Shown here piece after piece: positions 21,125 to 48,172 of a stretch of DNA of 49,722 nucleotides; the first letter of the stretch is position 1, and each line of letters opens with the position of its first letter. Position numbers and translations under genes: made by a program. Below the pieces are notes generated by a model that saw only the letters and a program-made list of their open reading frames with translations, ran no database searches and was not told the origin of the DNA. This DNA is from Desulfobotulus mexicanus (GTDB taxonomy: Bacteria > Desulfobacterota > Desulfobacteria > Desulfobacterales > ASO4-4): the NCBI RefSeq assembly GCF_006175995.1, contig NZ_VDMB01000001.1:371800-421521 (forward strand), given 5' to 3'.

Positions 21125-21140
21125 GGCAATAATAGTGCCA
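21125..21140 (-). promoter_or_regulatory. Sigma-54 promoter for fliD-fliS-fliT-flaG
   Basis: On the minus strand the sequence reads TGGCACTATTATTGCC: perfect TGGCAC, five spacer bases, and TTGC. It lies 143 bases before the fliD start, giving a leader of about 130 bases with several GC-rich hairpins. Apart from this and the flagellin terminator, I see nothing else in the 20983-21276 gap. Confidence 0.8.
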
Positions 21141-21276: not shown

Positions 21277-24200
21277 TTACTGCAGCAGGCTCATGACATT
21301 CTGGGAGCTGGCATTGGCCTGAGCCATGGCAAAGGTACCTGCCTGCATGAGCACCTGCATTTTGGTGAAGTTGGCGGATTCATCGGCAAAGTCCACATCC
21401 CGGATGGTGGATTCGGCAGCATTCACATTCACTCTGGTGGTGGAGATATTGGCTATGGTGGAGGCCAGCTGATTCTGCACGGAGCCGAGGTCTGCCCGGA
21501 TTCTGTCCAGATCCTTCAGGGCCGCATCGGCAACGGCAATGGCTTTCTGGGCGTTTTCCTGATTGAGTACATTGATTTGGGAAAGCCGTACCATTTCCGT
21601 ATCTCCTATTTCGGCCTCGGCCGTTCCGGAGATGGCGTTGTTGGGGGCCAGTTCGGACCCGGCTTTGAGTATGGAGCCGCTCTGCAGGGTCATGTCATTG
21701 GGAATTTTCGTGTCTTCTCCCAGGATGATCTCCTGGGTCAGGATGGTTCCGGCCCTGTAAAAATTGCCTGCCGCATCCGTCATGTCCGCCGTGAGCACCG
21801 TGTTTTCGGCTATGGTGCTGCCTGCGGTCAGTATGCTGCCAGCCCGGACAAAAAGATCCGCATCCCTTGCAACCACCTCGTCATGTTTCAGGGTAATGGT
21901 GCCGCCGATGGTGGATCCGCTGGAAAGGAGGCTTCGGCTGGCCATGACCGAACCTTCGGCAAGGACGAAGTCATCTTCAATGGCAAGGTTTCGCGTGAGC
22001 ACCGCACTTCCGCCAATGGTGGAGCCTGCGGCAGCCTTGAAAGCACTTCCCGTAAGAAGGGTGGATCCCTCCTTAATGGTGGCATCCTGTTCGAGAATGA
22101 TATTGTCAAGGATATGAACCTTGGCGCCAATAACAGAGCCTGCTGCAAGCCGGGTATCGTTTTCAAATTCAGAACCTGTTTGTGCCACCATGTCCTGATC
22201 CAGCCGCATGGCAAACTCCAGTTTAATCTCCGCACCTATACGACTGCCCGTTTCCATGCGGGACCCCTGAGCGATGAGGGAGTCTCCTTTCAGAACCATT
22301 TCTTTTTCAAGGATGCTGACACCTGCGGTCGTGATTTCCACATCCAGCCTGCTGTCTGTCTGGAGGCGGGAGCCTGCGGTTACCATGGAGCCTGCCTGAA
22401 GGCTCATGTTGTTATCTATGGTGGCAGACCCGGATACGATAATATCCGTATCTACTCTGGAACCGGCTGTGAGTACGGTTTTCTCACCGGCCGTGGAGGA
22501 AAGGGTGGAGCCTGCCTTGAGGGTCATGGTCTGGCTGATATCTGCGGTGTCGGCGAGGGTGATATCCGCATGGAGGGTGGAACCTTCCTTCAGGATACTG
22601 TTGGCAGCCAGGCGGGACCCTTGGGTGAGCTCCATGTCCGTTACAAGGGTGGCACTGGCGTGGGTATCCACGCCTACGGAAAGAACGGAACCCCGGGCTA
22701 CGGTGCTTTCATCCGCAAGTTGGGATCCTGATTCCAGTACCATGGAATTGGTAAGGTGGGCGGAGGTGATACTGGCTGTTATGGCGGCACCAATGCTGGA
22801 ACCCATGCCCAGTGCGGAACCAGCATCAATGGTTGAACCGATTCCGAGAACGAGGATGCCTCCGTCATTCAGATCTGCTGGACCCGTAAGGGTCGCAGTG
22901 GAGCCCGCGGGTGTTCCCCCTTCGGCTTCCACCAGCTGCCGCAGGGTGGCTGTCCCGTTGCCCGTTACGGGGGACGCAATGGGTATCTCCTGACCCTTGG
23001 CAGGAACCGTATCCCAGGAAAGAAGGCTGCCTGCGTTGAGAGTGCCGGTGATATTCGTGCTGATATCCGTGGTGACCACAGCCGGAGACAGGGTGATATC
23101 CGCACCGAGGGTGCTGTTGGCACCGATAACGCTGCCTGTAACGATAATGGAGCCCGGTGCCAGGGTGCTTTCCTGTACGGTGGCCTGCATCCCCGTGATC
23201 TGAATGTCGGCACCAAAGACCGAATCTTTGGCAATGGTGGAGCCTGTCACAATGGTGGAACCTAATTTGAGGAGGCTGTCTCCGCCGGATGTGGCCTGGG
23301 TGGCCGTATTTACCGTGCAGTCTCCTCCCAGTTTGCTTCCGGCGGCAATAGTCGATCCCTGACCCAGTTTGCTCCCCTTGGCTATGGTGCTGTCCACTAT
23401 GGTTTTACTGTAGGGAGGAGGAGTAGGATCCTGCAGGGTGATGGTTCCTCCCAGCAGGGTGTTTTTTCCGATCACAGATCCCGATGCCAGTTCCGATCCT
23501 GCTGTAATGACGGTTTCTTTGCTGGTATAGCCCGTATTGGCATCAAGGGTTACGGGGCCTCCCAGGGTGGAATCCGGGGCGATGATGCTGCCTGATTCCA
23601 GCCGTGACCCCTGTGTGAGGTAGGAGTCTCCGTTGGTCCGCTGGGAATCTTCGGCCAGAACGGCCCGTCCACCCAGCGTGGAGTTTACGGCTATAATACT
23701 GCCTGTGGCCAGAATGGAGTTTATGGCAAGGCGGCTGGGAGATGTGGTGGGTTCTGTCTTGGCAATGCGGGTACGGGCACCCAGTTCAGACCCTGCCGCA
23801 AGAAAAGAATTGGCTGCCAGAACGGAGCCTGCCTTGAAGTGGGATTCTTTGCTTGTGTGGATGTTATCTTTGATCAGGGTATGGGTGATTTCCTGCCCCG
23901 TAGTGAATCCCGCACCCAGCTCACTGTTCACAGCCAGAACGGAGCCTTCCTTCAGCAGGGCTTCCATGCTTGTCCGATCCGAATTTCCCTCAATTTCGAT
24001 GGGTCTTTCAAAGGAAACCGCGTCACCGCCACCCACATTGTGTACTATGATTTCCGATGCGCTCATCTGGGTAAGCTGAATATATCCCACAGTGCTCATG
24101 TTCGTGCCCCGGAAAACAGCTTCGGTCTGTTCTCCGGCGGTAACGCCAATGGCACGGCCATCATTGGAGGTAAGGGTGAGCTGCCCGCTGGTATTGATGG

Positions 24201-25077
24201 ATGCCACCACCCCGTGCTGGGAACTCTTTTGATTGATGGATTTCACCAGGGCGTAGTCGCTGTCATTGGTCTTCACATCGACAGCACCGATGGTGACACC
24301 ATTGATGGCAAAGTCATGATCCGTGGTTCCGGCCGCCAGACTGAGTTCCGTTGTGGAGGATACAAAGGCCGTTGCGGAAATGCCTAAGACATCGCTTAAG
24401 CGGTTCATGGAATCGGCCACGGCCCCCATGCTGTTTTCCCGGCTGTTGTTGTATTGTACCTCCACGGTTTCCAGATCAAAGGTCTGATCCGTAATGTTGG
24501 AGTAAATGGCCAGATCCACGGTGCCGGGCTGATCATCCTTCAGGGTCATGCGGCTGACGGTTGTGTGGCCGATTTTATTGGACTGGGAAGCGGGAACGGA
24601 AATATTGACCGTTTCTCCTGAGTAGGCACCTACCTGAAATTTTTTATTGGTAAAGGCTCCGGAGAGGAGTTTCTGGTTGTTAAAAGAGGTGTTTTTGGCA
24701 ATGGCATCCAGATTTTCCAGCAGCCTGTCAATGTCGGACTGGATGGCGGCACGGGATTCCGTGGTCTGACCGTCCTGGGCGGCCTGAATGGATTTTTCCT
24801 TGATGGTATTGACAATGCTGATGGATTCTTCCAGAGCCGCATCGGCTGTCTGTACTATATTGATGCCGTCACTGGCATTCCGGATGGCCTGCCCCAGGCT
24901 CAGGTGCTGGGATCTCAGGGAGTCGGCTATGGTCATGCCGGAGGCATCATCGGCGGCTCTGTTGATGCGCATGCCCGAAGACAGCCGTTCAAGGGAGGTG
25001 GAAAGGTGGCCGTCGGTCCGGGTAAGGTGTCTGTGTGCACTCAGTGATGAGATATTGGTGTTGATGCGAAAGCCCAT
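21277..25077 (-). CDS. fliC: Giant flagellin 1 with a hexapeptide-repeat central domain
   Basis: 1266 residues from the ATG at 25077 (ribosome site AAAGGGGG). A longer frame to 25185 is not used because only this start gives the flagellin N-terminus MGFRINTNISSLSAHRHLTR. The D0/D1 parts are canonical: RLSSGMRINRAADDASGMTI, then GINIVQTADAALEESISIVN, and at the C-terminus NQLASTIANISTTRVNVNAA, VDFADESANFTKMQVLMQAG and the end MSLLQ. Residues about 245-355 resemble the flagellin hook-IN motif (FAINGVTIGAVDVKTND). Residues about 371-1146 are six-residue repeats with an aliphatic residue every sixth position (SRLAAN, STIGGT, TRLAAG, SVIGAK). One Cys is present near residue 586, uncommon in flagellins. 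It has its own sigma-54 promoter and terminator. Confidence 0.95.
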   Translation of the reverse strand: MGFRINTNISSLSAHRHLTRTDGHLSTSLERLSSGMRINRAADDASGMTIADSLRSQHLSLGQAIRNASDGINIVQTADAALEESISIVNTIKEKSIQAAQDGQTTESRAAIQSDIDRLLENLDAIAKNTSFNNQKLLSGAFTNKKFQVGAYSGETVNISVPASQSNKIGHTTVSRMTLKDDQPGTVDLAIYSNITDQTFDLETVEVQYNNSRENSMGAVADSMNRLSDVLGISATAFVSSTTELSLAAGTTDHDFAINGVTIGAVDVKTNDSDYALVKSINQKSSQHGVVASINTSGQLTLTSNDGRAIGVTAGEQTEAVFRGTNMSTVGYIQLTQMSASEIIVHNVGGGDAVSFERPIEIEGNSDRTSMEALLKEGSVLAVNSELGAGFTTGQEITHTLIKDNIHTSKESHFKAGSVLAANSFLAAGSELGARTRIAKTEPTTSPSRLAINSILATGSIIAVNSTLGGRAVLAEDSQRTNGDSYLTQGSRLESGSIIAPDSTLGGPVTLDANTGYTSKETVITAGSELASGSVIGKNTLLGGTITLQDPTPPPYSKTIVDSTIAKGSKLGQGSTIAAGSKLGGDCTVNTATQATSGGDSLLKLGSTIVTGSTIAKDSVFGADIQITGMQATVQESTLAPGSIIVTGSVIGANSTLGADITLSPAVVTTDISTNITGTLNAGSLLSWDTVPAKGQEIPIASPVTGNGTATLRQLVEAEGGTPAGSTATLTGPADLNDGGILVLGIGSTIDAGSALGMGSSIGAAITASITSAHLTNSMVLESGSQLADESTVARGSVLSVGVDTHASATLVTDMELTQGSRLAANSILKEGSTLHADITLADTADISQTMTLKAGSTLSSTAGEKTVLTAGSRVDTDIIVSGSATIDNNMSLQAGSMVTAGSRLQTDSRLDVEITTAGVSILEKEMVLKGDSLIAQGSRMETGSRIGAEIKLEFAMRLDQDMVAQTGSEFENDTRLAAGSVIGAKVHILDNIILEQDATIKEGSTLLTGSAFKAAAGSTIGGSAVLTRNLAIEDDFVLAEGSVMASRSLLSSGSTIGGTITLKHDEVVARDADLFVRAGSILTAGSTIAENTVLTADMTDAAGNFYRAGTILTQEIILGEDTKIPNDMTLQSGSILKAGSELAPNNAISGTAEAEIGDTEMVRLSQINVLNQENAQKAIAVADAALKDLDRIRADLGSVQNQLASTIANISTTRVNVNAAESTIRDVDFADESANFTKMQVLMQAGTFAMAQANASSQNVMSLLQ
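21640..23967 (-). repeat. Hexapeptide-repeat region of flagellin 1
   Basis: This DNA codes residues about 371-1146. The repeated unit is x-x-[LIVM]-x-x-[GDN], most often S-x-[LI]-x-x-G, and often fits the hexapeptide pattern [LIV]-[GAED]-x-x-[STAV]-x known from left-handed beta-helix proteins. The phase is kept over many units with small slips, for example an 8-residue unit (SAFKAAAG). A non-repeated insert with the words LSWDTV and TLRQLVEAE lies near residues 670-745. Confidence 0.85.
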
Positions 25078-25105
25078 GGTTTTTCCCCCTTTGGCGGATA
25101 AATCT

Positions 25106-25122
25106 TCGGTCCTGTTGCCCGA
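25106..25122 (-). promoter_or_regulatory. Possible CsrA site in the flagellin 1 leader
   Basis: On the minus strand TCGG (25119-25122) and CCGA (25106-25109) can pair around the loop GCAACAGGA, which places ACAGGA, the core of the CsrA consensus, in the loop. It lies about 30 bases before the start. The ribosome site (AAAGGGGGAA) contains a second GGA. The stem is only four pairs, so this is weaker than the site before flagellin 2. Confidence 0.4.
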
Positions 25123-25168
25123 GGGTACGGGTACCACTCTGGCCTGATTTTTCTGAAAAATCATGGAT

Positions 25169-25184
25169 AGCAAAATGGGTGCCA
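25169..25184 (-). promoter_or_regulatory. Sigma-54 promoter for flagellin 1
   Basis: The minus strand reads TGGCACCCATTTTGCT, an exact match to TGGCAC-N5-TTGCT. It is 92 bases from the flagellin start, giving a leader of about 80 bases that includes a GATTTTT/AAAAATC inverted repeat (25147-25163) and the possible CsrA site. From 25185 to the terminator at 25351 there is a T-rich stretch and nothing else I can name. Confidence 0.85.
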
Positions 25185-25350
25185 CGTTGTTTTTTTGTTC
25201 TTTTTTCTTTGATTATCGGGTGTTGTCATGCGCATTGAAGGCTTTTTTTCGGAGGCAGAGCAGTGCGGGGTGGGAAAACAGCGGGGGGGAGTGGGCAAAT
25301 TCTTCCGCTTTGATCTGTTTGAAAAAGGGCTTTTACTGTTTCCGGGAGTT

Positions 25351-25386
25351 AAAAAAAGCCCCTGCCGCTTTTTGCGGGTCGGGGCC
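25351..25386 (-). terminator. Terminator of the small gene between the flagellins
   Basis: On the minus strand CCCCG-A-CCGC-like and GCGG-CA-GGGG arms flank an AAAAA-rich loop and are followed by seven T (25351-25357 on the plus strand are A). It lies about 43 bases after the stop codon at 25429. Confidence 0.8.
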
Positions 25387-25428
25387 CTGATCCGTTCCGG
25401 CTGGGGAAGGGGGGCTGGTGTCGGGTAC

Positions 25429-25722
25429 TCAGCCTTCCAGCAGCTGCATTACCCTTTCATAGCTGATGGGGCTGTGGGCGGTGGCAAGGCCTTCTGCTTT
25501 GGAAAGTCCTGCAATTTTTGCCATATTGGTATCCTCTTCCCCAAGGTTTACCGCTTGCACAGACTCAGGCGCAGCCATGCTGCTCCGGGAAAGGGTGGTT
25601 TTATCCTGAGGGCTGGTGGGGTTCTGATGCCCGTGTTTTTCCTGAACATGGGGTTCTGCGGCAGGCTTTCTGGTGCTGTGCATGGGGGTGTTGATCTGGC
25701 TGCTGGATATCTGGATGCTCAT
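25429..25722 (-). CDS. Small protein of unknown function between the two flagellins
   Basis: 97 residues with a good ribosome site (AGGAGGCATACC before the ATG). It starts MSIQISSSQINTPMHSTRKP, is rich in Ser, Gln, Pro and His through the middle, and ends in a likely helical part (MAKIAGLSKAEGLATAHSPI, then YERVMQLLEG). There is no signal peptide and no membrane helix. It forms its own transcription unit with a sigma-54 promoter and a terminator. I do not recognise the family. The segment DKTTLSRSS followed by an MAKIAGL-type helix is faintly like FlgM, the anti-sigma-28 factor otherwise not found in this window, but the resemblance is too weak for a call. Confidence 0.65.
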   Translation of the reverse strand: MSIQISSSQINTPMHSTRKPAAEPHVQEKHGHQNPTSPQDKTTLSRSSMAAPESVQAVNLGEEDTNMAKIAGLSKAEGLATAHSPISYERVMQLLEG

Positions 25723-25803
25723 GGTATGCCTCCTTCTGGCTCATGGAAAAATTGCTTTGTGACAGGGTTTTTCCCTGTGTTTTGTTTTTCTGTAAAAAAA
25801 TAA

Positions 25804-25819
25804 AGCAATATCAATGCCA
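25804..25819 (-). promoter_or_regulatory. Sigma-54 promoter for the small gene
   Basis: The minus strand reads TGGCATTGATATTGCT, one mismatch from TGGCAC-N5-TTGCT. It lies 82 bases before the start. The leader contains a short hairpin, ACAGGG/CCCTGT around AAAAA (25762-25778). The stretch 25820-25917 up to the flagellin 2 terminator holds nothing I can name. Confidence 0.8.
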
Positions 25820-25917
25820 AAAAATAAAAGGGGTGACCCTTTTTATCTGAATGCCAGATTGAAGGGTGGGCTATAACGAAGCCTGCCCTGTTGTGGGTAG
25901 CTACGGGGGGCCTACAC

Positions 25918-25949
25918 AAAAAACCCCCCTCCGGCAGGAGGGGGGTTTT
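25918..25949 (-). terminator. Terminator of flagellin 2
   Basis: AACCCCCCTCC (25922-25932) and GGAGGGGGGTT (25937-25947) form a perfect 11-bp stem with a 4-base loop. On the minus strand a run of six T follows. It lies about 30 bases after the flagellin stop codon. Confidence 0.9.
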
Positions 25950-25977
25950 AAGGTTAAGGGTTAATCGGGGTTAAGGC

Positions 25978-28900
25978 TTACTGGAGCAGGCTCATGACAT
26001 TCTGGGAGCTGGCATTGGCCTGAGCCATGGCAAAGGTGCCTGCCTGCATCAGAACCTGCATCTTGGTGAAGTTGGAGGATTCTTCCGCAAAGTCCACGTC
26101 ACGGATGGTGGATTCGGCGGACATAACATTCACCCTTGTGGTGGAGATGTTGGCAATGGTGGAGGTCAGCTGGTTCTGTACGGAACCAAGGTCTGCCCGG
26201 ATCTTATCCAGATCCTTCAGTGCTGCGTCTGCCACTGCGATGGACTTCTGGGCACCTTCCTGAGTAAGAACATTCACCTGAGAAAGCCGCAGCAGTTCCG
26301 TTTCACCGAGCTCTGCCGTGGCAGAATCGGAGCTGGCATTGTTGGCCGCCAGTGTGGAGCCTGCCTTGACCTGAGAACCGCCCTGCAGGGTCATGTCCTG
26401 TGTAAGGGTGAGATCTTCGGCCAGAGTGATACCCTGCGTGAGTACGGTACCTGCGGTGTGCAGGTTTCCTGCTGAGTCGGTCACGTCCATGGTGAGCAGG
26501 GTATTAACCCCAAGGGAAGAGCCGGCCTTGAGGGTACTGCCTGCTGCCACCAGAAGATCCGTTTCCTGGGATACGGTTTCATCGTTTCTCAGGGTGATGG
26601 TGCCGCCGATGGTGGAGCCGTTGGCAAGCACGGTATTGTTGGCCATCACAGAACCCTTGGCAAGGGTGAAGTCTGCGGTGATGGCAAGGTCTGTGGCCAG
26701 ATCCGCCCGGCCGCCGATGGTGGAGCCAGCCTCTGCCTTGAAGGCGTTGCTGGTGACCAGGGTGGAGCCTTCTTTTATGGCCGCATCCTGGGTAAGGGTC
26801 ATGTTGTTGCGGGTGGTGACATCCGCACCGATCACAGAGCCTGCGGCAAGGCGGGTGTCGCTTTTAAAGAGAGAGCCTGCATTGGCTGTCATGTCCTGAT
26901 CCAGACGCATGTCGTTTTTGAGGGTGATTTTGGCACCCACATTGGAGCCTGCCTCAAGGCGGGATTCGGCGGCTATCTTTGAATCGCCCTTGAGGGTCAT
27001 GTTCTGGTTCAGAACGGTTACACCTGTTGTGTTGATGGTCTGGTCAATACGGCTGCTGGTGTTAAGGGTGCTGCCGCTAACGATCCTGGAGCCTGCCTGC
27101 AGGGTCATGTCCCGGTCCATGGTGGCATCTGCAGAGAGGGTGATGTCCGTATCCACCCGGGATCCGGCCGCAAGCTTAGTTGCTTCAGCTGCACCACCTT
27201 TCAGAGTGGAGCCAGCATTGAGGGTCATGGTAGTTTTCACCTCCATGACTGTATTCCCAAGGGTTATGTCCGCATCAATACGGGATCCTTCCTTGAGTAC
27301 ACTGGCGGTGGCAATTTTTGAGCCTTCGTTGAGCTGCATGTCTGAGGCAAGGTTCATTACTGCCGCAGTGGTTGTATCCACAGAGAGGGTGGAGCCTCTG
27401 GCTATGTTTGTGGTGCCAATCAGCTGGGATCCGGCCTCAAGGGTCATTTCATTGGTGACGCTCAGGCCTAAGCGGAGGGTGAGATCCTCACCGATCTGCG
27501 AACCGGCGTATAAAGCGGAGCCTGAGCTTATTTCGGACCCAATGCCCATTTCCAGAATGCCACCGTCCGTAAATGCTACTGTCTCATCACTTACAAGACT
27601 GAGATTGGTTGCAATGGTAGCAGTGGCACCACTGTTGGCTTCCACCAGCTGGCGCAGGGTGAGGTTGCCATCTCCGGTGATGGCTGTATGGGTGCCATCC
27701 ATGGAGGCGGATGTTATTGCCTGCCCATTGGCAAGAACCGTATCCCAGCTTAGTACAGCTCCAGAACCAAGGGTTCCGGTTATATTGAAGCTTTTGTCTG
27801 TAGTTGTGGTTACCCCTGTGGTGGTGGCCGTACCTCCCAGCACCGTACCGTTGCCAATGGTACTGCCTATACCAAGGAGCGAACCCTGAGCTATGGTGCT
27901 TTCTTCGGTGGTTGTGTCGGTCATTGCTGCGATTTGTGTTGCTGCAACTCCCTGGAAAGTGGAGCCTGCGGCAATGACGGTACCTACTGCAAGTGCCGAA
28001 CCCTGCTTTGCCAGCCCTCCCTTATCCCCGATGGCCGTTGTGGCAGCACCCAGTGTGGCATCCCCGCCCAGTTTCGTGTCGGCTGCGATGATGGTGCTTG
28101 TACCCAGCTGACTTCCTGCGGTGATCACACTGTCCTGGGTGGTCTTGCTGTATGTTACTGAATGGTCGAGAGTAACTTCACCGCCAAGCTCTGTGTTTTT
28201 TCCGATCACAGAACCAACAGCCAGTTCGGAGCCCGCTGTGATGTGGCCTTCCTTACTGGTAAAGCCGGTGCTGGAGCTTAGGGTGACATTGCCACCCAGA
28301 GTGGAGTCTGCTGCAATGATGGTGCCAGCTTCGAGCCGGGAGCCTGCCATAAGGAGGGAATCTCCGTTGGTGCTTTCCGTTGTGCCGCTCAGGGTAGCCC
28401 TGCCGCCGAGGGTGGAGTTGGCTGCAATTTCTGATTTTGCTTTAATGACAGAATCTTTGGCAAGGGTGCTGGCCTCTGTTGTAGCCTGTGTTTCACCGAT
28501 TCTTACCTGACCGCCGATGACAGACCCTGCGCCCAGAACGGAGTTGGCCACAATTACGGAGCCTTCAGTCAGAACACTTTCTTTACTGGTGTTGATGCTG
28601 CTGTTTTTAACGCTTGCTCCCGTGAGGGTTTGACCTGTGGTGAAACCTGCGGCCAGTTCACTGTTCTGGGCCAGAACAGAGCCTTCCTTGAGGGTGGATT
28701 CCAGGGTGGTTGCTTCGGAGTTGCCCTGAATCTGGATGTTGTTTTCAAAGGCCACGGCATCCCCGCCGCCCACATTGTTGATAATGATTTCCGAAGAAGT
28801 CATCTGGGTGAGCTGGATGTGGCCTACGGTGCTCATTTCTGTACCGCGGAGTACGGTTTCCGTACCCTCACCGCCCGTATCCACCTTAATGGCCCGGCCA

Positions 28901-29817
28901 TCCGTGGAGGTGAGGGTGAGTTTTCCTTCCGTATTCACGGAGGCAAATACGCCATGATCGGCGGTTTTCTGGTTGATGGCCCTGACCAGAGCACCATTGG
29001 CATCGTTATTCTGCACGTCTACGGCGCCGATGCGGGTACCGTTGATGAAAAAATCGTTGTCTGTACGGCCTTGGGCCACGCTGAGATCCGTGGTGGAAGA
29101 AACAAAGGCTGTGGCAGAAATTCCCAGTACGTCACTGAGCATATTGATGGAGTCTGCAACGGCGCCCATACCGTTTTCCCTGTCATTGTTGTACTTCACA
29201 TCAATGGCGTTCATGTTGAAGGTCTGGTCCAGGGTGTTGGAGTAGATGGCCAGATCCACGGTGCCGGGAGCATTGTCTTTCAGGGTCAGGGTGCTTGTTG
29301 TGGTATGCCCGATTTTGCTGGACTGGGAAGCACCGATGGAGATGTTCACGGTTTCGCCGGAGTAGGCACCCACCTGAAACTGCTTGTTGGTGAAGTTACC
29401 GGAAAGGAGCTTCTGGTTGTTGAAGGATGTGTTTTTGGCAATGGTGTCCAGGTTTTCAAGGAGTTTGTCGATGTCAGCCTGAATGGCTGCCCTGGATTCG
29501 GAAGTCTGGCCGTCCTGGGCTGCCTGAATGGATTTTTCCTTGATGGTGTTAACAATATTGATGGATTCTTCCAGAGCCGCATCCGCAGTCTGTACGATGT
29601 TGATGCCATCGTTGGCATTCCGGATGGCCTGTCCAAGGCCCATGTGCTGGGACTTGAGGGAGTTGGCAATGGTCATGCCGGAGGCATCGTCCGCTGCACG
29701 GTTGATACGCATGCCCGAGGAAAGACGCTCCAGTGATGTGGAGATTTTTCCGTCGGTGGCACCAAGATTTTTGTGGGCATTGAGTGCTGCCACGTTGGTA
29801 TTAATTCGAAGACCCAT
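25978..29817 (-). CDS. fliC: Giant flagellin 2 with a hexapeptide-repeat central domain
   Basis: 1279 residues, ATG with AAGGAGGG. It is a close paralogue of flagellin 1 along its whole length. N-terminal D0/D1: MGLRINTNVAALNAHKNLGA, RLSSGMRINRAADDASGMTI; C-terminal: NQLTSTIANISTTRVNVMSA, VDFAEESSNFTKMQVLMQAG, end MSLLQ. Residues about 245-355 are hook-IN-like (FFINGTRIGAVDVQNND). Residues about 372-1160 are hexapeptide repeats such as SKIAAE, SRLEAG, TRLAAG and SVIGAD, with the same local interruptions as in flagellin 1. No cysteine was seen. Ser and Thr are abundant, offering many sites for O-glycosylation. Its leader differs from that of flagellin 1: a sigma-28-like promoter and a strong CsrA-type hairpin. 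Confidence 0.95.
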   Translation of the reverse strand: MGLRINTNVAALNAHKNLGATDGKISTSLERLSSGMRINRAADDASGMTIANSLKSQHMGLGQAIRNANDGINIVQTADAALEESINIVNTIKEKSIQAAQDGQTSESRAAIQADIDKLLENLDTIAKNTSFNNQKLLSGNFTNKQFQVGAYSGETVNISIGASQSSKIGHTTTSTLTLKDNAPGTVDLAIYSNTLDQTFNMNAIDVKYNNDRENGMGAVADSINMLSDVLGISATAFVSSTTDLSVAQGRTDNDFFINGTRIGAVDVQNNDANGALVRAINQKTADHGVFASVNTEGKLTLTSTDGRAIKVDTGGEGTETVLRGTEMSTVGHIQLTQMTSSEIIINNVGGGDAVAFENNIQIQGNSEATTLESTLKEGSVLAQNSELAAGFTTGQTLTGASVKNSSINTSKESVLTEGSVIVANSVLGAGSVIGGQVRIGETQATTEASTLAKDSVIKAKSEIAANSTLGGRATLSGTTESTNGDSLLMAGSRLEAGTIIAADSTLGGNVTLSSSTGFTSKEGHITAGSELAVGSVIGKNTELGGEVTLDHSVTYSKTTQDSVITAGSQLGTSTIIAADTKLGGDATLGAATTAIGDKGGLAKQGSALAVGTVIAAGSTFQGVAATQIAAMTDTTTEESTIAQGSLLGIGSTIGNGTVLGGTATTTGVTTTTDKSFNITGTLGSGAVLSWDTVLANGQAITSASMDGTHTAITGDGNLTLRQLVEANSGATATIATNLSLVSDETVAFTDGGILEMGIGSEISSGSALYAGSQIGEDLTLRLGLSVTNEMTLEAGSQLIGTTNIARGSTLSVDTTTAAVMNLASDMQLNEGSKIATASVLKEGSRIDADITLGNTVMEVKTTMTLNAGSTLKGGAAEATKLAAGSRVDTDITLSADATMDRDMTLQAGSRIVSGSTLNTSSRIDQTINTTGVTVLNQNMTLKGDSKIAAESRLEAGSNVGAKITLKNDMRLDQDMTANAGSLFKSDTRLAAGSVIGADVTTRNNMTLTQDAAIKEGSTLVTSNAFKAEAGSTIGGRADLATDLAITADFTLAKGSVMANNTVLANGSTIGGTITLRNDETVSQETDLLVAAGSTLKAGSSLGVNTLLTMDVTDSAGNLHTAGTVLTQGITLAEDLTLTQDMTLQGGSQVKAGSTLAANNASSDSATAELGETELLRLSQVNVLTQEGAQKSIAVADAALKDLDKIRADLGSVQNQLTSTIANISTTRVNVMSAESTIRDVDFAEESSNFTKMQVLMQAGTFAMAQANASSQNVMSLLQ
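26338..28704 (-). repeat. Hexapeptide-repeat region of flagellin 2
   Basis: This DNA codes residues about 372-1160. The run from about residue 939 to 1022 keeps hexad phase for some 14 consecutive units with an aliphatic or aromatic residue at the third place in nearly all of them. Repeats are divergent at DNA level, so recent slippage is not the cause. A non-repeated insert (LSWDTV ... TLRQLVEAN) lies near residues 672-745, as in flagellin 1. Confidence 0.87.
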
Positions 29818-29915: not shown

Positions 29916-32900
29916 TTAACTTTTTCTGTCCTGACGGAGATTATCCTGGGCCGAAAGGGCCATGCTGTGATCCGGGTTCAGCTCCAGAACCAGATCATAG
30001 GCCTTAAGAGCCTTCTGCTTTTCTCCCATGGCCTCCAGGGTTTTTGCGTAGTTATAAAAGGCATCGGCATTCAGGGGGGCAATGGCCATCACCTTCTCAA
30101 AGCGGGTTGCGGCACTTGTGTATTCTCCCCGGTTGAATGCGAGGACACCCAGATTGGTAAGGGCAGATGTCATTTCAGGGTCTGTACGGAGGGCATCGGA
30201 ATAGGCTGCTTCTGCCTCACGGAAGTAGCCGTTTTCCTGAAGAAGGAGGCCCAGATGATAGTGGGCAAGGCTGTGGTCGGGTTTAAGGGTGAGAGCCGTC
30301 CGGAAGCACTGCTCCGCATCCTGCATACGGCCTGTGCGGTGGCAGGCACAGCCGAAGAGGTTCCAGAAGTCTGCATTCTCATTTTGGGTGTGCTGCAGGG
30401 GAATGAGAAGCTGGAGGGCTTCTTCAGGTTTTTCTTTGGCCAGAAGCTGTTCTGCTTGATTGGGTATGCTCTCCTCAGGGGCTTGCGCCGGTTTTTCCAT
30501 AAGCTCTTTATACATGCCAAGGTGATGCCTTGCCTGCCCGATATCTCCATGGCGTAAAAGGATCTGCCCTGCTTTCAAATGGAAAGGAGCATGCAGGGGC
30601 AGAAGTTCAAGGCCTTTACCGTAGGCTTCCAGAGCACTTGCATCCTCGCCGTTTGCCTCCAGGCTGTCACCAATGCTTTCCCAGTGCATGGCCATGTCTG
30701 CATTCAGGTCTGTGGCAGCCTGAAGGTGCTGCAGGCCTGCAGCAAACTCTTCAAGGCTGAAGCAGAGGTGCATGAGCTTGATGTGACGGGGGGCGGTTTC
30801 TTCTTTTGTCTGGGCAAGTTCCAGAAGAATACGGGCCTTTTCCGGCAGGCTGTCTTTTTCTTCCTTCTCTGCCCTTATTTCCAGGAATGTGGCAAAATCC
30901 GAAGGGGACAGGAGCTCCGGAATCATCGGGTTTTCGGAAAGCCAGTCTTCCCACAGGGCAAGGAGGGCAGGGCCCTGCTCCAGCCCCTGCTGCAGGCTGT
31001 GCAGCATCCTGCGGAAAAAGCGTTGTAAAAGAAGCGTCAGTCCGTAATGGTCCGGTGCCATGGCAAGTCCCTTCTGCAGCATGCGCAGGCTTACCCTGAT
31101 GTTGGCTGATGTTCTGAGTGCGGCAAAGTCCGTATAGGTATCTCCCCACTTTTTTCTGAATTTATCCACTTCTTTTTGCAGGGGGGGAGGATGGATTTTG
31201 GCAAAAAGACCATTGGCCTTTTCATAATCCATGTATGTGGCAGCAATTTTTCCCCTTATCAGGAGTACCTCATCCATATTTTTTTCTTCATCTGACATCT
31301 GGCCGATCACTTTACGGGCCGAAGCCAGATCGTCCGTTTCATGGAAAAACCGCAGTGCCTCCAGAAGAGAAAGTTTTTTTTCCGGATGGAAAGCGGGATT
31401 TTTTTCCATGGACTGGATGGCATTTTCCACACCGGATTTCATAATAGACAGGCCGTTCATTCTGACCCGGTTGATTTCGTTGAGTCTTTCAAGGCTGAGG
31501 CGGAGCCACTGGAGGTAAGGACCGTTTTCCGCAAGGCGGTCAATTTCCATGAGCATACGCTCGCTGGTTCGCAGGCCTTCCAGGGTAATATCATCCATAA
31601 GAGCCCATATTTTTTCCCGGTCTGCCTGTTTATGGGCTTTGTCTGCTGCCTCAATGGCCCGGCGCAGGGGGGAGGGGAGGGTGGTGAGGGCTGGATACTG
31701 TTTGCCTGCCTTTATCAATTTATCCACACCCTGCAGTGCCGACTCTCCTTCTTTTTGGCAAACCTTCAGAAGCTTTTCCAGTTTATGGATGGTTTTCAGG
31801 GTGGATTTTAACGATTTTTCGGTGCCTGCTGGTGTCTGTTTCCAGGGCACATGCTGGCTGGACTGGCTGATGATGGTCTCTGCGGAGACCTCTTTTGTGC
31901 AGAAGGCAGAGAGAATATCTTGTAAGGGCATCACTTCCGTGCCTTCAATGACAGCACCGGGCAGCGTGGCATTGATATAGTGGCCCGGATTGGCTTTGAT
32001 CATCTGTTCAAAAAAAATTTTAAAGTCGTAAAAACCCCTGTTTGTAAAGGCGGGTATACCGTTATTGGTTTGAATATTCACCCTGTCTTCTATTTTTCCG
32101 GATTCATCAAAGGAGAGAACCGTACTTTGCACATGGGTGTTTTTGCCCATGGGATAGCAGAGGTCCTGCCCCAGCAGCACAATGGGAGAGCAGCCCAGGG
32201 AAATGGCCGCAATCATGTTCATGTGGGCAACGGTGCCTGCGCCGCCGTTTTCCATACTCCCGCCCATGAGGTGGTTGATCCAGCGCTCCAGATTGGCTGT
32301 GCTGAAGGCCCAGAATATTTCTTTAAAGGGAAACTGACAGGGTACCTTGTGAGTTACAAAGGGCATGGCAATGAGGTTGATCCGATCAGCAAAAAAAGGG
32401 GCTGCGGGGGCCATTTTTTCGTAGGTGAGTTCCTGATAATCAAGCGATGTTACAAAGTCTGGAATAATGTTTCTGGAGGCAAGGGCAGGCAGAACTGTAT
32501 CCACGGCAAAGAGGACGGCACGGCCCTGAAATTTTTTTAAGGTGTCCAGCTCCTGGGTTAAGGAAGGCCCACCGGCTATGAGGATGGCAGGTACTCCCTG
32601 AAAGGCGTTGGCCAGCTCCTGCAGAAGGCGGTTTTTTTGAATAAGGGGCAGGATACTCATACGGTTTTTAAAAAAGGTGCTGCCATGGAGCATGAGGGTG
32701 CTGCCGCTCACATTCAGCTGGTTGAGGCGTTTGTAAATATCCTGACGCAGGTTTTCGTACCCATCCGGATCCATCTGAAGGGAGGGCTGGTGGGGAAGGA
32801 TGAAGGCATTTTCCAGTTTTAAAATACGGTTGGCCGGGCTTATGGCCTCTGCCATATCCTCTGGATCCGTAAGAAAAATATGGACTCTTTTATCCTTGAG

Positions 32901-33251
32901 AAGCAGGGACAGATCTTTTTGGCAGAGGGCCTGAAGAAAAACTTCCGGATGGCGCTCAAAAATAAAAAAATGAGCTATGCCGGGTCTCTGTTCCACGAGC
33001 CTGCCGGCGCCGTGCCCAAGACCCATGCCAAGGAGTATGACTGCGCCGCTTTGCTGTGGAGGCACGGTGTTAAAGTGGCTGAGGCATTCGTTACCCGGGT
33101 TTTGGACATCATGCATCCATATGTTTTTGAACTTAAAGTTTTCCGGATGCTCAGAACTTACAGGAAAGGGGGTAAGGCCCTTTAAATGGGAAAGCAGGTG
33201 GGGGTGGTGTTTTTCCACAAGGGCCATGTTGGATGCAAAAAAGGATGTCAC
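29916..33251 (-). CDS. Motility-associated (MAF, DUF115-type) glycosyltransferase fused to TPR repeats
   Basis: 1111 residues. MAF enzymes transfer nonulosonic acids such as pseudaminic acid to Ser/Thr of flagellin in the cytoplasm. The N-terminal region has the MAF domain order: GAVILLGMGLGHGAGRLVEQ, then about residues 210-235 GVPAILIAGGPSLTQELDTL, AVDTVLPALASRNIIPDFVT, and MIAAISLGCSPIVLLGQDLC. A helical middle follows, and from about residue 860 on there are five or so TPR units (MHWESIGDSLEANGEDASAL; DHSLAHYHLGLLLQENGYFR; MTSALTNLGVLAFNRGEYTS). TPRs are protein-binding and may hold the flagellin or other enzymes. It is last in the pseudaminic acid operon and directly upstream of flagellin 2. 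Confidence 0.9.
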   Translation of the reverse strand: MTSFFASNMALVEKHHPHLLSHLKGLTPFPVSSEHPENFKFKNIWMHDVQNPGNECLSHFNTVPPQQSGAVILLGMGLGHGAGRLVEQRPGIAHFFIFERHPEVFLQALCQKDLSLLLKDKRVHIFLTDPEDMAEAISPANRILKLENAFILPHQPSLQMDPDGYENLRQDIYKRLNQLNVSGSTLMLHGSTFFKNRMSILPLIQKNRLLQELANAFQGVPAILIAGGPSLTQELDTLKKFQGRAVLFAVDTVLPALASRNIIPDFVTSLDYQELTYEKMAPAAPFFADRINLIAMPFVTHKVPCQFPFKEIFWAFSTANLERWINHLMGGSMENGGAGTVAHMNMIAAISLGCSPIVLLGQDLCYPMGKNTHVQSTVLSFDESGKIEDRVNIQTNNGIPAFTNRGFYDFKIFFEQMIKANPGHYINATLPGAVIEGTEVMPLQDILSAFCTKEVSAETIISQSSQHVPWKQTPAGTEKSLKSTLKTIHKLEKLLKVCQKEGESALQGVDKLIKAGKQYPALTTLPSPLRRAIEAADKAHKQADREKIWALMDDITLEGLRTSERMLMEIDRLAENGPYLQWLRLSLERLNEINRVRMNGLSIMKSGVENAIQSMEKNPAFHPEKKLSLLEALRFFHETDDLASARKVIGQMSDEEKNMDEVLLIRGKIAATYMDYEKANGLFAKIHPPPLQKEVDKFRKKWGDTYTDFAALRTSANIRVSLRMLQKGLAMAPDHYGLTLLLQRFFRRMLHSLQQGLEQGPALLALWEDWLSENPMIPELLSPSDFATFLEIRAEKEEKDSLPEKARILLELAQTKEETAPRHIKLMHLCFSLEEFAAGLQHLQAATDLNADMAMHWESIGDSLEANGEDASALEAYGKGLELLPLHAPFHLKAGQILLRHGDIGQARHHLGMYKELMEKPAQAPEESIPNQAEQLLAKEKPEEALQLLIPLQHTQNENADFWNLFGCACHRTGRMQDAEQCFRTALTLKPDHSLAHYHLGLLLQENGYFREAEAAYSDALRTDPEMTSALTNLGVLAFNRGEYTSAATRFEKVMAIAPLNADAFYNYAKTLEAMGEKQKALKAYDLVLELNPDHSMALSAQDNLRQDRKS

Positions 33252-33271: not shown

Positions 33272-34327
33272 TCAGATATCAATGTCTTCCCAGGCTGCGG
33301 GAGTTCCCCTGTCTACGGATTTTTTGAGTCTTTTGCCGAAAAGTGTATTCAGATGTTTAGGTGCAAGACCGTAGCCGGGACGGATGCTCTTTATACTTTT
33401 TTCATCAAGAATATCTCCGGCCTTCATATCCTTTATATAATAGAGGGATCTGCGGAAGAGGACATTGGCCCGTTCACTGGATTTTCTGCCGTAATCCACT
33501 TTGCCTAAGGCCTGCCAGGCGGTTTTAGCGTCCCGGCAGAGTTCTTCGAGCTGGGGAGGCTCTAAGGAAAAACTGTCGTCCGGGCCTCCGCCCTTTCTGT
33601 TGAGGGTGAAATGCTTTTCGATGATGGCGGCGCCCAAGGCCACACTGGCAATGGCTGTGGTGTTGTCCAGGGTGTGATCGGAAAGCCCTGTGACCTTGCC
33701 GAAGCGGGCCATCATGTCAGGGATGGTTTTCAGGTTGTAGTCTTCGGGAGGCGCCGGATAGCCGCTGACGCAGTGCAGAAGGGCAAGTTCCGTGCAGCCC
33801 CCGTCTTCTGCGGCCTGAACGGCCTCTGCGATTTCTTCCATGTCCGCCATGCCTGTGGAAAGGATCATGGGCTTTTTGGTGGAAGCGGCATAGCGAACCA
33901 GGTTAAGATCCACGGCTTCAAAGGAGGCGATTTTATAGGCAGGCGTATTGAGGTCTTCCAGAAGATCCACGGCTGTACTGTCAAAGGGTGTGCTGAAAAT
34001 GGTGATGCCCAGCTCCTTTGCCCGGTCAAAGAGGGGGCCGTGCCAGTCCCAGGGCATCTGTGCCCACCGATAAAGCTCGTACAGGGTTTTTCCGTCCCAG
34101 AGGCCCCCTTTAATCTGAAAGTCTTCGCTATCACAATTGAGGGTGAGGGTGTCTGCCGTATAGGTCTGGAGCTTGACGGCATCTGCACCGCATTTTTTAG
34201 CGGTTTCCAAAATGGCGAGGGCCCTTTCCAGGCTGCCGTTGTGGTTGGCGGAAAGTTCGGCAACAATATAGGGTGGAGCATTGGATGATATTTCACGTTT
34301 ATTAATATTTATACAGGAGTTAATCAT
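33272..34327 (-). CDS. pseI: Pseudaminic acid synthase PseI
   Basis: 351 residues from the ATG at 34327 (GAAGGAAA upstream); the frame is open to 34351 but only with a TTG that overlaps the previous gene. PseI condenses 6-deoxy-AltdiNAc with phosphoenolpyruvate. The NeuB-type barrel starts PYIVAELSANHNGSLERALA and contains ADAVKLQTYTADTLTL, IASFEAVDLNLVRYAA and LALLHCVSGYPAPPEDYNL. The motif KHFTLNRKGGGPDDSFSLEP is that of PseI rather than NeuB. The C-terminal antifreeze-like SAF domain is present (RRSLYYIKDMKAGDILDEKS). The first dozen codons are AT-rich like the neighbouring block at 34341-37145, the rest GC-richer. Confidence 0.92.
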   Translation of the reverse strand: MINSCININKREISSNAPPYIVAELSANHNGSLERALAILETAKKCGADAVKLQTYTADTLTLNCDSEDFQIKGGLWDGKTLYELYRWAQMPWDWHGPLFDRAKELGITIFSTPFDSTAVDLLEDLNTPAYKIASFEAVDLNLVRYAASTKKPMILSTGMADMEEIAEAVQAAEDGGCTELALLHCVSGYPAPPEDYNLKTIPDMMARFGKVTGLSDHTLDNTTAIASVALGAAIIEKHFTLNRKGGGPDDSFSLEPPQLEELCRDAKTAWQALGKVDYGRKSSERANVLFRRSLYYIKDMKAGDILDEKSIKSIRPGYGLAPKHLNTLFGKRLKKSVDRGTPAAWEDIDI

Positions 34328-34340
34328 TTGATTTTTTCCT

Positions 34341-35825
34341 TCACTCGTCAAATAAGGATTCTTTATGTTCCAGCTCTGTCCATTTTTCTTTGATTAAATC
34401 GTGGTGTTGCAGGGGGGTTTTGTTTAAGGACTTTGTTAAAAGATCCTTTGCAAAATTTCTATATTCATGGCCTGCAGATGCAAGATGCCACATGTAAATC
34501 CATGTAAGATGATATATAGGCGGTAAACTCTCTGGTTTTTTTTCTTGATAGAGTTTTTCTAATGTGCTGTTTGGAAAAATGTTGAGATGAAAAACTATGG
34601 TTCTTTTAGGAGGAATGGAGCAAAGAAGATCGAAGGTTTCTTTTAGTGTTTCTTCTGTTTCGAAAGGGTTAAATCCTATTATATCATGTTGATAATTAAT
34701 CTTGTTTTCTGTCAGAAAGTTCGCTGCTAGAATTATTTGCTCATTTGATATTTTTCTATTGTAGATTTCCTTCCTGATTCTTTCGGAACCGGATTGAATG
34801 CCAAAGCTGGTTTCCTGCATCCCTGCAGCACATAGTTTTTCAAGAATCGACATCGATTGAAAACGGACTTCAATGTTACAGAAAAAGGGCAAGCTGATTT
34901 CTTTTATATATAAAGCCAGAAATGTATCCAGCCATTTTTCAGATGATGAAAAAATTGAATCCATAAATCGAATATACTTTAAATTGTATTTTTTCTTACG
35001 CTCTCGTAATTCTTCTATGACATTTTCTGGATTCCTTACGCGAATTCGTGGAAAAGTTATATTTCCATAATCTTTATATAAGTTTGTCCATTGACCTGCC
35101 ATACAATAAGTACAATTTGAAGAACAGCCCCTGCTTGCAAAAATATCATACCAAGTTGTTTTGCGTATTAATGACTGATCTGAGATCACTTGATCATCTT
35201 CAATATAAAAAGAGTTTTCATCATCCCAGTCGGGGAAAGGAAGTTCATTCAAGTTTTTTAAGGGAGGATGTAAGGGGTTTATTATTAATTCTTTTTGGTT
35301 GTTGATATATGCTATATTGTTAAGATGTTTTATTTCTTCATAATGGTTGTCGTCATAGGAGTTGGCTAGATCAAGGAGCGTTTTTTCACCCTCTCCAAAA
35401 CATACATAATCAAAAATTTCTGCAAACTCTTTTGTAAGAAGAGAAGGGCCATAACCTCCTGCAATAAGAAGTGATTTTGGAGATTTCTTGCGTATTTTTT
35501 CTGTCATGTCAGAGTTCATATCCAGCCAGAATGTTCTTGTGCTAAGTCCAATAATGTCTGGTTTTTGGGATGCAATGGTGTCGATTAGCAGATTCAGTTC
35601 TGTTTCTGTATAAGGATTTGTATCATATCCATTGGCATAAATTTGGCCGGGTAAATAATGAAGATACATTATGGTCTTTAAATTTTCTTCTTTGACAGGT
35701 GCAGCAGAATGTGTTTTGAAAAAGATCATTGTTACATGATGGCCATTCTTTTTTAAATGACTACTCAGAGCCCGCATTCCAAGACATATTACATCATAAC
35801 AGGTAAAAAGTACTATTTTGGCCAT
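34341..35825 (-). CDS. B12-binding-type radical SAM protein in the glycan operon
   Basis: 494 residues. The N-terminal 140 residues have a cobalamin-binding-like Rossmann domain (MAKIVLFTCYDVICLGMRAL, SSHLKKNGHHVTMIFF, PKSLLIAGGYGPSLL). The radical SAM core begins at about residue 230 with YDIFASRGCSSNCTYCMAGQ, which holds the CxxxCxxC cluster motif, and continues with LKYIRFMDSIFSSSEKWLDT and TSFGIQSGSERIRKEIYNRK. Enzymes of this class often methylate unreactive carbons or rearrange sugars; the substrate here is unknown. Position between pse genes suggests a modified nonulosonic acid or flagellin residue. Codons are AT-rich, unlike the flanking genes. Confidence 0.85.
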   Translation of the reverse strand: MAKIVLFTCYDVICLGMRALSSHLKKNGHHVTMIFFKTHSAAPVKEENLKTIMYLHYLPGQIYANGYDTNPYTETELNLLIDTIASQKPDIIGLSTRTFWLDMNSDMTEKIRKKSPKSLLIAGGYGPSLLTKEFAEIFDYVCFGEGEKTLLDLANSYDDNHYEEIKHLNNIAYINNQKELIINPLHPPLKNLNELPFPDWDDENSFYIEDDQVISDQSLIRKTTWYDIFASRGCSSNCTYCMAGQWTNLYKDYGNITFPRIRVRNPENVIEELRERKKKYNLKYIRFMDSIFSSSEKWLDTFLALYIKEISLPFFCNIEVRFQSMSILEKLCAAGMQETSFGIQSGSERIRKEIYNRKISNEQIILAANFLTENKINYQHDIIGFNPFETEETLKETFDLLCSIPPKRTIVFHLNIFPNSTLEKLYQEKKPESLPPIYHLTWIYMWHLASAGHEYRNFAKDLLTKSLNKTPLQHHDLIKEKWTELEHKESLFDE

Positions 35826-35852
35826 TTTTATTCTCCAATATGTTTTGCTTGT

Positions 35853-36629
35853 TTAGTTTGTTTTTTCCCAAATCCAAAGTTTTCCTTGCCCTAATTCTCC
35901 TATGGGGGGAAGAATGAGGCCAAGCTTATTGACCAATGCATCATATTGGGGTTGTTGGCCTTCCTGCATGGCCAGCCATGCATTGACTACACGGCTGATG
36001 ATATAATATGTTGAGCTATAATGTTCTAAATCAATAAGTTTTACATTCTCGATATGAAGAGATGCAATTTCTTTGTTGTATAGATAACGATTATGCCAAG
36101 GAGGTGTAATAGGGGGCAGTTGGCACAGCCCTCTTAATTGATTGATTTCATCCAAGCCTTCCTGGCTGTTTTCACACATTAAATAGCGGCCACCAGGTTT
36201 AAGAAGGCCTGTAATATCTTTTATTGCTTTGGCTTGGCTGGGCCAGTCAGGAAGATTTATTAAAGCTCTTTCTGTATAGGCAATATCATAGTTTGCATTT
36301 AACAGGGGGAGTTTTCTCATGTCTGCAACTTGAAAGTTTATGTTGCCTTTCAACGTTGTATTTTTTGCAGTCAGCTTAGCCTCCTCGATCATTTTCTCAG
36401 AAAAGTCAAAAGCATCAATTTGGATATTAAAATTTTTTGCAAATTCAATGGCCGTTATTCCATTGCCACACCCGATTTCGAGTATTTTTTGTCCAGTTTG
36501 AATATGCTTTTTCAGTGTGTTTATTTCAAGTTGTTTTGCAATATAATCATTTGATCCAGCCTGTTGTTTCAGGGGTGCACGATCATTCCAGAATTTGTGG
36601 ATATTATTTTCATAGTTTTCTTGGGCCAT
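35853..36629 (-). CDS. Class I SAM-dependent methyltransferase
   Basis: 258 residues. Motif I is ILEIGCGNGITAIEFAKNF (about residues 49-67), followed by the acidic strand IDAFDFSEKMIEEAKL, motif II-like FQVADMRKLPLLNANYDIAY, and LLKPGGRYLMCENSQEGLDE. The N-terminus (HKFWNDRAPLKQQAGSNDYI) is shared by several sugar and polyketide methyltransferases. The substrate is unknown; context favours the activated sugar or glycan. It lies in the AT-rich block with the radical SAM gene, suggesting the two came together. Confidence 0.82.
   Translation of the reverse strand: MAQENYENNIHKFWNDRAPLKQQAGSNDYIAKQLEINTLKKHIQTGQKILEIGCGNGITAIEFAKNFNIQIDAFDFSEKMIEEAKLTAKNTTLKGNINFQVADMRKLPLLNANYDIAYTERALINLPDWPSQAKAIKDITGLLKPGGRYLMCENSQEGLDEINQLRGLCQLPPITPPWHNRYLYNKEIASLHIENVKLIDLEHYSSTYYIISRVVNAWLAMQEGQQPQYDALVNKLGLILPPIGELGQGKLWIWEKTN

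Positions 36630-47092: not shown

Positions 47093-48172
<1,080 letters not shown>

Follow-up and report, generated by a model that had tools for sequence, protein, structure and literature searches.

Two giant flagellins of Desulfobotulus mexicanus with hexapeptide-repeat outer regions that resemble left-handed beta-helix proteins in sequence

The outer domains of flagellins are among the most variable of protein regions, and those with solved structures are, to our knowledge, compact and globular. This analysis concerns two giant flagellins, termed here A and B, that are encoded within a stretch of 49,722 nucleotides of the Desulfobotulus mexicanus genome (contig NZ_VDMB01000001.1, positions 371,800 to 421,521; termed here the window) and whose central regions consist largely of hexapeptide repeats resembling those of left-handed beta-helix (LbH) proteins. 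The favored explanation, to which we assign a probability of roughly 60 percent, is that A and B are flagellins with D0, D1 and D2 domains whose outermost domain is built of LbH-type hexapeptide repeats folded as out-and-back rods, serving a structural role in a thick filament.

Several described systems share some of these features. Flagellins of the Campylobacterota (Helicobacter pylori FlaA and FlaB and Campylobacter jejuni FlaA; PDB 9ygu, 9yh1 and 6x80) have the D0, D1 and Flagellin_IN-type D2 domains in common with B, but are 508-576 residues long. A predicted model of B (see below) aligns with H. pylori FlaA and FlaB over 378 residues (Z 24.7; 42 and 44 percent identity) and with C. jejuni FlaA over 376 residues (Z 23.0), versus about 189 residues for flagellins that lack outer domains. 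The giant flagellins of Bermanella marisrubri and Oleibacter marinus, which make thick filaments, are like A and B in exceeding 1000 residues and in having a large central insertion (Thomson et al. 2018, PMC6248924); their insert is described there, however, as tandem 'Domain-Extension' regions together with a DX insert, which would set it apart from those of A and B, and the main text of that paper nowhere contains the string 'hexapep'. Flagellinolysins, as described in PMC5595980, likewise carry a foreign fold within the hypervariable region, theirs being a metallopeptidase and those of A and B being repeats. The sequence-only reading from which this work started knew of no described flagellin with the fold that it proposed, and the open-access literature, judged from titles and the beginnings of abstracts, agrees: it yielded no flagellin with a hexapeptide, beta-helix or beta-solenoid outer domain, the one match for a flagellin with 'left-handed beta-helix' concerning the enzyme PseH instead, and the terms 'beta-helix' and 'solenoid' occurring 0 times in the main text of PMC8931119.

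The hexad pattern is shared with LpxD, LpxA, GlmU, NeuD/PglD, gamma-carbonic anhydrase and eIF2B epsilon. Such LbH (hexapeptide transferase) proteins are cytoplasmic and have about ten coils or fewer; A and B, in contrast, contain about 120 hexads within an exported filament protein and are poor in histidine.

Both proteins exceed, at their ends, the Pfam cut-offs for Flagellin_N (26.6 bits) and Flagellin_C (23 bits), are encoded by open frames that cluster with fliD, fliS, fliW, flgK and flgL, and carry a central insertion that brings them above 1000 residues (Table 1); they are thus the giant flagellins that they had been taken to be. The further claim, that an aliphatic residue recurs every six residues within the insertion, was examined by autocorrelation of aliphatic residues (LIVMF) over residues 371-1147 of A and 372-1160 of B, using 1000 shuffled sequences as a control. 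At lag 6 there are 105 pairs in A (55.2 expected; z 9.3) and 109 in B (49.3 expected; z 11.5), values that 0 of the 1000 shuffles attain for either protein; lags 12, 18 and 24 are likewise elevated, and there is a deficit at lags 3, 9, 15 and 21. Matches to the motif [LIV][GAED]xx[STAV]x number 42 in A (mean of 1000 shuffles 24.8, maximum 40) and 44 in B (mean 25.9, maximum 39). A six-state Viterbi model of the hexad, trained on A and B together, places 728 of 825 residues of A (120 hexads) and 754 of 835 residues of B (125 hexads) in register, with longest unbroken runs of 155 and 153 residues, respectively; its scores of 298 for A and 270 for B (no higher than -125 in 20 shuffles of each) pertain to the same two proteins on which it was trained. 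Numbering from the aliphatic residue, the six phases are occupied chiefly by L/I, A/G, A/G, G/D/N, S/T and T/V. The LbH fingerprint has a turn residue at the fourth place, and this phase profile resembles that pattern.

Pfam provides a check that is independent of this A/B-trained model: the Hexapep family (PF00132; cut-off 27 bits) matches A with 71.1 bits and B with 59.8 bits, and LbH_EIF2B (cut-off 54 bits) matches A with 58.4 bits and, below the cut-off, B with 35.9 bits. NCBIfam gives partial matches of the two flagellins to LpxD (58 and 50 bits) and NeuD (56 and 44 bits), none of the best 25 models per protein reaching its cut-off. When the PDB was searched with a profile of the second hexad block of A (profile A5), 17 sequences were found at E ≤ 0.01 and 69 at E ≤ 10. 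The best 60 of these 69 are all of LbH type by name, led by LpxD (E 8e-6), and include no right-handed family by name; this class is known or presumed from the names, which for 7s43, 7s3u and 3vnp do not by themselves tell. A phmmer search of the PDB with residues 400-715 of B returned two matches at E ≤ 0.01, both to proteins with the same hexad pattern, namely LpxA (6oss; E 0.0011) and GlmU (2v0h; E 0.0081). No flagellin appears among the matches listed in these searches with hexad blocks.

The hexad model was also applied to control solenoids drawn from the same and related genomes. It detected 12 of 12 LpxD sequences (z 13.9-47.8). For 15 bactofilins z ranged from -0.7 to 5.8, with one of the 15 scoring above all 50 shuffles (an extra frame of L114, at z -0.8, is no bactofilin), and for 15 Beta_helix (PF13229) loci, some of which are cut by locus ends and two of which (L123 and L135) lie in one gene, z ranged from 0.1 to 4.9, with five of the 15 scoring above all 20 shuffles. 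Within the D. mexicanus genome itself, LpxD and four other hexapeptide proteins are in register (the four at z 10.0-18.9; names such as LpxA and gamma-carbonic-anhydrase-like were assigned by eye, and L094 and L095 were left out of the count), while its bactofilin is blank. A and B themselves were considered as members of the Bactofilin family and this was rejected, as PF04519 is not listed for either at E ≤ 1 and bactofilins score low with the hexad model. A and B are therefore likely to be hexapeptide-type flagellins, and the pattern of their repeats, on balance, favors a left-handed fold.

Structure prediction does not bear this out directly. AlphaFold2 was run on residues 45-1240 of B with an alignment of 18 sequences and on residues 738-1148 of A, which include its second hexad block, with 25 sequences. 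Short strands occur mostly at six-residue spacing in both models, at low confidence over most of the repeats. For B the mean predicted local distance difference test score (pLDDT) is 61.2 and the predicted template modeling score (pTM) 0.37, the D1 and D2 parts lying mostly at 61-89. The following observations count against the LbH interpretation. The hexad blocks of B have a pLDDT mostly of 27-65, rising to 71-80 at the end of block 2, and the model of A block 2 has a mean pLDDT of 57.2 and a pTM of 0.40, with model residues 1-320 near 48; LbH enzymes usually model well in AlphaFold2. A confident stretch of about 85 residues in the A model (model residues ~321-410, corresponding to A 1062-1148; pLDDT 71-96) was left unmatched to LbH enzymes by Foldseek, which found no PDB match to this model at E ≤ 0.001. 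Among the best 50 rows of a VIA-align comparison with the A block 2 model, those found are right-handed beta-helices by name (Z 10.9-14.3) and no left-handed helix occurs, which, given that VIA-align re-aligns the Foldseek ranking, amounts to no exclusion of left-handed helices. Finally, there is the weak hexad signal in some right-handed controls (the five Beta_helix loci and one bactofilin that beat all of their shuffles).

The Foldseek and VIA-align results support the strongest rival explanation, namely that the hexads fold as a right-handed beta-solenoid of 18-residue coils like those of bactofilins, antigen 43 or tailspikes, which would give the same stiff external rods. Bactofilins and other right-handed helices resemble A and B both in having coils of about 18 residues and in their likeness to the weak model: the best Foldseek row in the PDB for the A block 2 model is antigen 43b (E 2.2e-3), and the VIA-align rows include tailspikes, antigen 43, UpaB and others, all of which we take to be right-handed helices, the best one superposing over 290 residues (Z 14.3; root-mean-square deviation (rmsd) 4.0 Å). 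Most of these alignments, however, end by model residue 326, that is, they cover the part whose pLDDT is near 48. Against a library of viral proteins the sole match at E ≤ 0.001 is instead to a protein with an LpxD domain, and LpxD- or LpxA-like proteins occupy the first three places (E 4.2e-5 to 2.9e-3), though with rmsd values of 24, 25 and 10 Å; mainly tail and lyase-like proteins follow. (Full-length searches with the B model recovered flagellins only among the best 50 rows, so that the repeats were untouched by that comparison.) Hence the sequence points to a left-handed fold while a weak model looks right-handed. The sequence evidence is weighted above the model here because it is specific and controlled, and because AlphaFold2 is unreliable where it renders repetitive sequence as a solenoid at low confidence. 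The absence of Bactofilin at E ≤ 1 and of right-handed names among the best 60 of 69 PDB rows, together with z values of at most 5.8 for bactofilins and Beta_helix loci against those of the 12 LpxD controls, makes a right-handed solenoid unlikely, albeit the alternative that fares best. Of the original LbH proposal, what stands is that the hexads are, by sequence, of the type found in LbH proteins, as opposed to that of bactofilins or Beta_helix proteins; the models do not establish the fold itself. Nor do they amount to the confident right-handed models that the sequence-only reading had named as grounds for its refutation.

The low AlphaFold2 confidence, along with the many register shifts and loops within block 1, would also be expected if the hexads were low-complexity sequence, rich in Ser, Thr, Gly and Ala, that forms no stable solenoid but rather a flexible glycosylated brush or short solenoid pieces joined by loops. 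This is less likely still, in that the hydrophobic period is strict, lags 3 and 9 are depleted, and the pattern is retained in relatives that are only 35-58 percent identical within the blocks, all of which argues for a packed core.

The sequence-only reading had envisaged a single rod of 40-odd turns per subunit. In favor of one continuous left-handed rod of about 40 coils are a hexad register that spans 88-90 percent of the region and the existence of several relatives that lack a central break. In flagellins, however, D1 is formed jointly by N- and C-terminal strands, so that the chain has to come back to it. Such a rod would place its ends about 20 nm apart, at opposite tips, and no more than about 15 residues separate the last hexad from the conserved C-terminal part; a single rod is therefore improbable. 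The run is also interrupted midway: the hexad model shows register breaks at residues 708-742 of A and 730-755 of B, and in B the apex contains a weakly predicted helix (pLDDT 57-65). A hairpin of two rods, of about 18 and 22 coils, that turns at a fast-evolving apex fits better, with moderate confidence.

Conservation was compared with this arrangement in mind. Between B and its orthologue (L006) in a second genome of the genus, termed G002, 24 of 47 apex residues (706-755) are identical, as against 79 percent of both hexad blocks and 98 percent of D0/D1; by bins, those closest to the two bases are 93-100 percent identical and that at the apex 33 percent. Over five comparisons, the identities of blocks 1 and 2 are 79/79, 97/97, 54/58, 35/38 and 42/44 percent. 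A least conserved apex, equally conserved blocks and conserved bases are as expected of out-and-back rods with an exposed tip, though this pattern is also expected in part of any outer flagellin region. Other observations speak against the hairpin. Bins at residues 781 and 871 of B are likewise low (43 percent), so that low identity is not confined to the apex; 8 of 32 hexad flagellins (see below) have no break of at least 12 residues, among them seven of the nine shortest, with lengths of 795-811 residues; and under the same model there is no mid-region break in L039, in L026 or in L037, the G002 orthologue of A that is 97 percent identical to it. A search for a central break over all of the relatives gave no clean hairpin mark.

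The likeness in pattern to LpxD, LpxA, GlmU and NeuD suggests an enzymatic alternative, in which the filament would present an acyltransferase much as flagellinolysin filaments present a protease. This is very improbable, given that histidine makes up only 1.0 (A) and 0.5 (B) percent of the hexad regions, that no enzyme model among the best 25 per protein reaches its cut-off, and that LbH enzymes are trimers with the catalytic site between neighbors.

Under the favored explanation of LbH-type out-and-back rods, the chain would leave D2 as a triangular rod of about 18 coils, turn at the non-hexad apex, and run back into the C-terminal D1 as a second rod of about 22 coils. LbH proteins rise by 4.8 Å per coil, so that these rods would be roughly 9 and 11 nm long; we know of no left-handed beta-helix of such length. 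The subunits would coat the filament with stiff, Ser/Thr-rich rods that thicken it, and whose role would be structural rather than enzymatic.

The rods may, moreover, be O-glycosylated with pseudaminic-acid-type sugars made by a neighboring gene cluster. A candidate flagellin glycosyltransferase gene adjoins B on its upstream side, and a cluster of sugar genes extends over 33272-48148 of the minus strand. PseI, PseF (317 bits), WbuX N-acetyl sugar amidotransferase (286 bits) and HisH (207 bits) are over their cut-offs there; a PseC-like transaminase and a HisF/WbuZ-like protein are below theirs; and two methyltransferases and a radical SAM/B12 protein are present as well. By gene content the cluster would fit synthesis of an acetamidino pseudaminic-acid-type glycan for flagellin. 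Ser and Thr together account for 24 and 26 percent of the two hexad regions, with Thr the commonest residue at phase 6; this, and the adjoining pseudaminic-type pathway and Maf-like gene, make glycosylation of the rods plausible. At the edge of the sugar cluster is a 186-residue frame of a PD-(D/E)XK transposase family (48354-48914, minus strand), which matches only the end of the Pfam model.

The search for related proteins covered 58 genomes from this genus and its order; 21 of them match B and at least 8 encode hexad-type proteins by lag-6 score (G000, G001, G002, G015, G036, G041, G045 and G053; in G017 the gene is cut by a contig end). (A PF00132 search over these relatives finds every genome and is thus uninformative regarding flagellins.) In an even sample of the phylum, Flagellin_N occurs in 243 of 395 genomes and the hexad region of B is matched at E ≤ 1e-6 in 12 of the 395, its own genome included, probably a lower bound. 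Named records with relatives include Desulfobotulus alkaliphilus and metagenome-assembled genomes called Desulfosudis, Desulfobacterium and Thermosulfurimonas. Flagellins from these searches were divided by lag-6 score (L026 and L040 by reading of the frame) into 32 hexad and 12 non-hexad proteins, leaving out truncated frames (such as L009, L010, L011, L014, L015, L024, L028 and the C-terminal pieces L034-L036) and small flagellins of ~260-310 residues. At E ≤ 0.001, all 32 hexad proteins match both Flagellin_N and Flagellin_C, 28 match Hexapep and 23 match LbH_EIF2B, whereas none of the 12 non-hexad flagellins, with lengths up to 1235 residues, matches either Hexapep or LbH_EIF2B; these counts express agreement with the division and not frequency. 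One further candidate, a 1510-residue protein of G008 (L050), was rejected as a flagellin, resembling by eye a PKD-repeat surface protein.

On a tree of the D0/D1 ends with 44 rows, the hexad trait requires 3 changes, versus 10.5 with shuffled labels; one gain and two losses are possible, though some branches are long and their placements unsure. The phylum-wide distribution of relatives and the few changes on this tree indicate that the trait is old within the phylum and no quirk of one assembly. Two non-hexad groups (L047-L049 and L044-L046) nest among the hexad flagellins on the tree, so that there may have been more than one swap or loss of an outer domain. The former group (from G022 and G011, of the same order) consists of giant flagellins of 1146-1235 residues with little or no hexad signal, the outer domain of which is different but similar in size.

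A and B themselves evolve at differing rates. In comparisons of two genomes of one genus, the hexad blocks of A are nearly frozen (97 percent identical to those of its G002 orthologue, in which all 176 N-terminal residues are identical as well), while those of B have diverged to 79 percent; this suggests different places or roles in the filament.

The 3.8-Mb genome that holds the window belongs to the same genus as Desulfobotulus alkaliphilus (another congener, G001, has a flagellin frame identical to the one in the D. alkaliphilus record) and encodes elsewhere a third, small flagellin of about 277 residues. The window contains a flagellar gene cluster, with A and B on the minus strand along with flaG, fliT, fliS and fliD. 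On the plus strand are a gene of FlhB C-terminal type, fliK, two flgF/G-like genes, flgA, flgH, flgI, a rod-binding gene, flgN, flgK, flgL and fliW. FlgK (9670-13788, plus strand; 1372 residues) and FlgL (13793-16987, plus strand; 1064 residues, with Flagellin_N and Flagellin_C at its ends) also seem unusually large, neither matching Hexapep at E ≤ 0.01; these junction proteins look enlarged as though in step with the flagellins.

The listed open reading frame of A (21277-25185, minus strand; 1302 residues) begins with GTG at 25185, a start that is doubtful because the codons upstream of the ATG at 25077 overlap a perfect sigma-54-type -24/-12 site; this ATG (MGFRINT...), which gives A an N-terminus resembling that of B, is probably the true start. 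Perfect -24/-12 sites number three in the window (the third, at 28313-28327, lies within the coding part of B), and sites with up to two mismatches number 77 versus 59.7 expected; weight is therefore placed on the position of a site rather than on number. A search with a sigma-28 pattern gave no exact match. Directly after B a GC-rich hairpin followed by a T run (25915-25945, minus strand) was found by eye, which suggests that A and B are transcribed separately. Between them lies a 97-residue frame (25432-25722, minus strand) that is preceded by a one-mismatch -24/-12 site at 25805-25819 and has no Pfam match at E ≤ 0.01; from its position, a FlgM-type anti-sigma factor would be a guess.

Table 1. 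Features of the giant flagellin locus, in window coordinates
Feature	Position	Strand	Basis
Second perfect -24/-12 site, TGGCACTATTATTGC, upstream of fliD	21126-21140	-	Pattern search
Flagellin A, 1266 residues	21277..25077	-	Flagellin_N 146.3 bits, Flagellin_C 94.3, Flagellin_IN 42.1
A, D1/D0 C-terminal part, residues 1163-1266	21280..21591	-	Pfam Flagellin_C
A, hexad block 2, residues 743-1147, putative returning rod	21637..22851	-	Hexad register, profile A5, AlphaFold2 model
A, apex, residues 699-742, putative hairpin turn	22852..22983	-	Register break 708-742
A, hexad block 1, residues 371-698, putative outgoing rod	22984..23967	-	Hexad register
A, D2-like part, residues 177-344	24046..24549	-	Flagellin_IN, 2 stretches
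A, D0/D1 N-terminal part, residues 1-176	24550..25077	-	Pfam Flagellin_N
Sigma-54-type -24/-12 site, TGGCACCCATTTTGC, upstream of flagellin A	25170-25184	-	0 mismatches to TGGCAC-N5-TTGC
Flagellin B, 1279 residues	25978..29817	-	Flagellin_N 145 bits, Flagellin_C 94.9, Flagellin_IN 33
B, D1/D0 C-terminal part, residues 1176-1279	25981..26292	-	Pfam Flagellin_C
B, hexad block 2, residues 756-1160, putative returning rod, ~22 coils if regular	26338..27552	-	Hexad register
B, apex, residues 706-755	27553..27702	-	Least conserved segment, predicted helix at ~721-729
B, hexad block 1, residues 371-705, putative outgoing rod, ~18 coils if regular	27703..28707	-	Hexad register
B, D2-like part, residues 177-345	28783..29289	-	Flagellin_IN motifs
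B, D0/D1 N-terminal part, residues 1-176	29290..29817	-	Pfam Flagellin_N
Maf/MptE-like protein with C-terminal tetratricopeptide repeats, candidate flagellin glycosyltransferase, adjoining B	29916..33251	-	PF01973 MptE-like 117.8 bits, PF20157 Maf_flag10_N 34.5 bits
PseI, pseudaminic acid synthase, start of sugar cluster	33272..34351	-	TIGR03586 497 bits, cut-off 340

A fuller version of this proposal, which we regard as tentative and as somewhat less probable than its being wrong, is that a lineage of Desulfobacterota possesses flagellins with twin, long left-handed helices (of ~18 and ~22 coils) that would fold at the filament tip after being exported unfolded, would bear pseudaminic-acid-type sugars on regularly spaced threonines, and would form a thick, stiff sleeve. 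If true, this would represent a new way to armor and thicken a filament, namely with a long hexapeptide solenoid; it would provide a case in which to test how such a solenoid folds once it has passed through a narrow export channel, as well as a natural, very long beta-helix useful to protein designers; and it would raise the question of whether such filaments alter the swimming of the sulfate reducers that live in mud and soda lakes.

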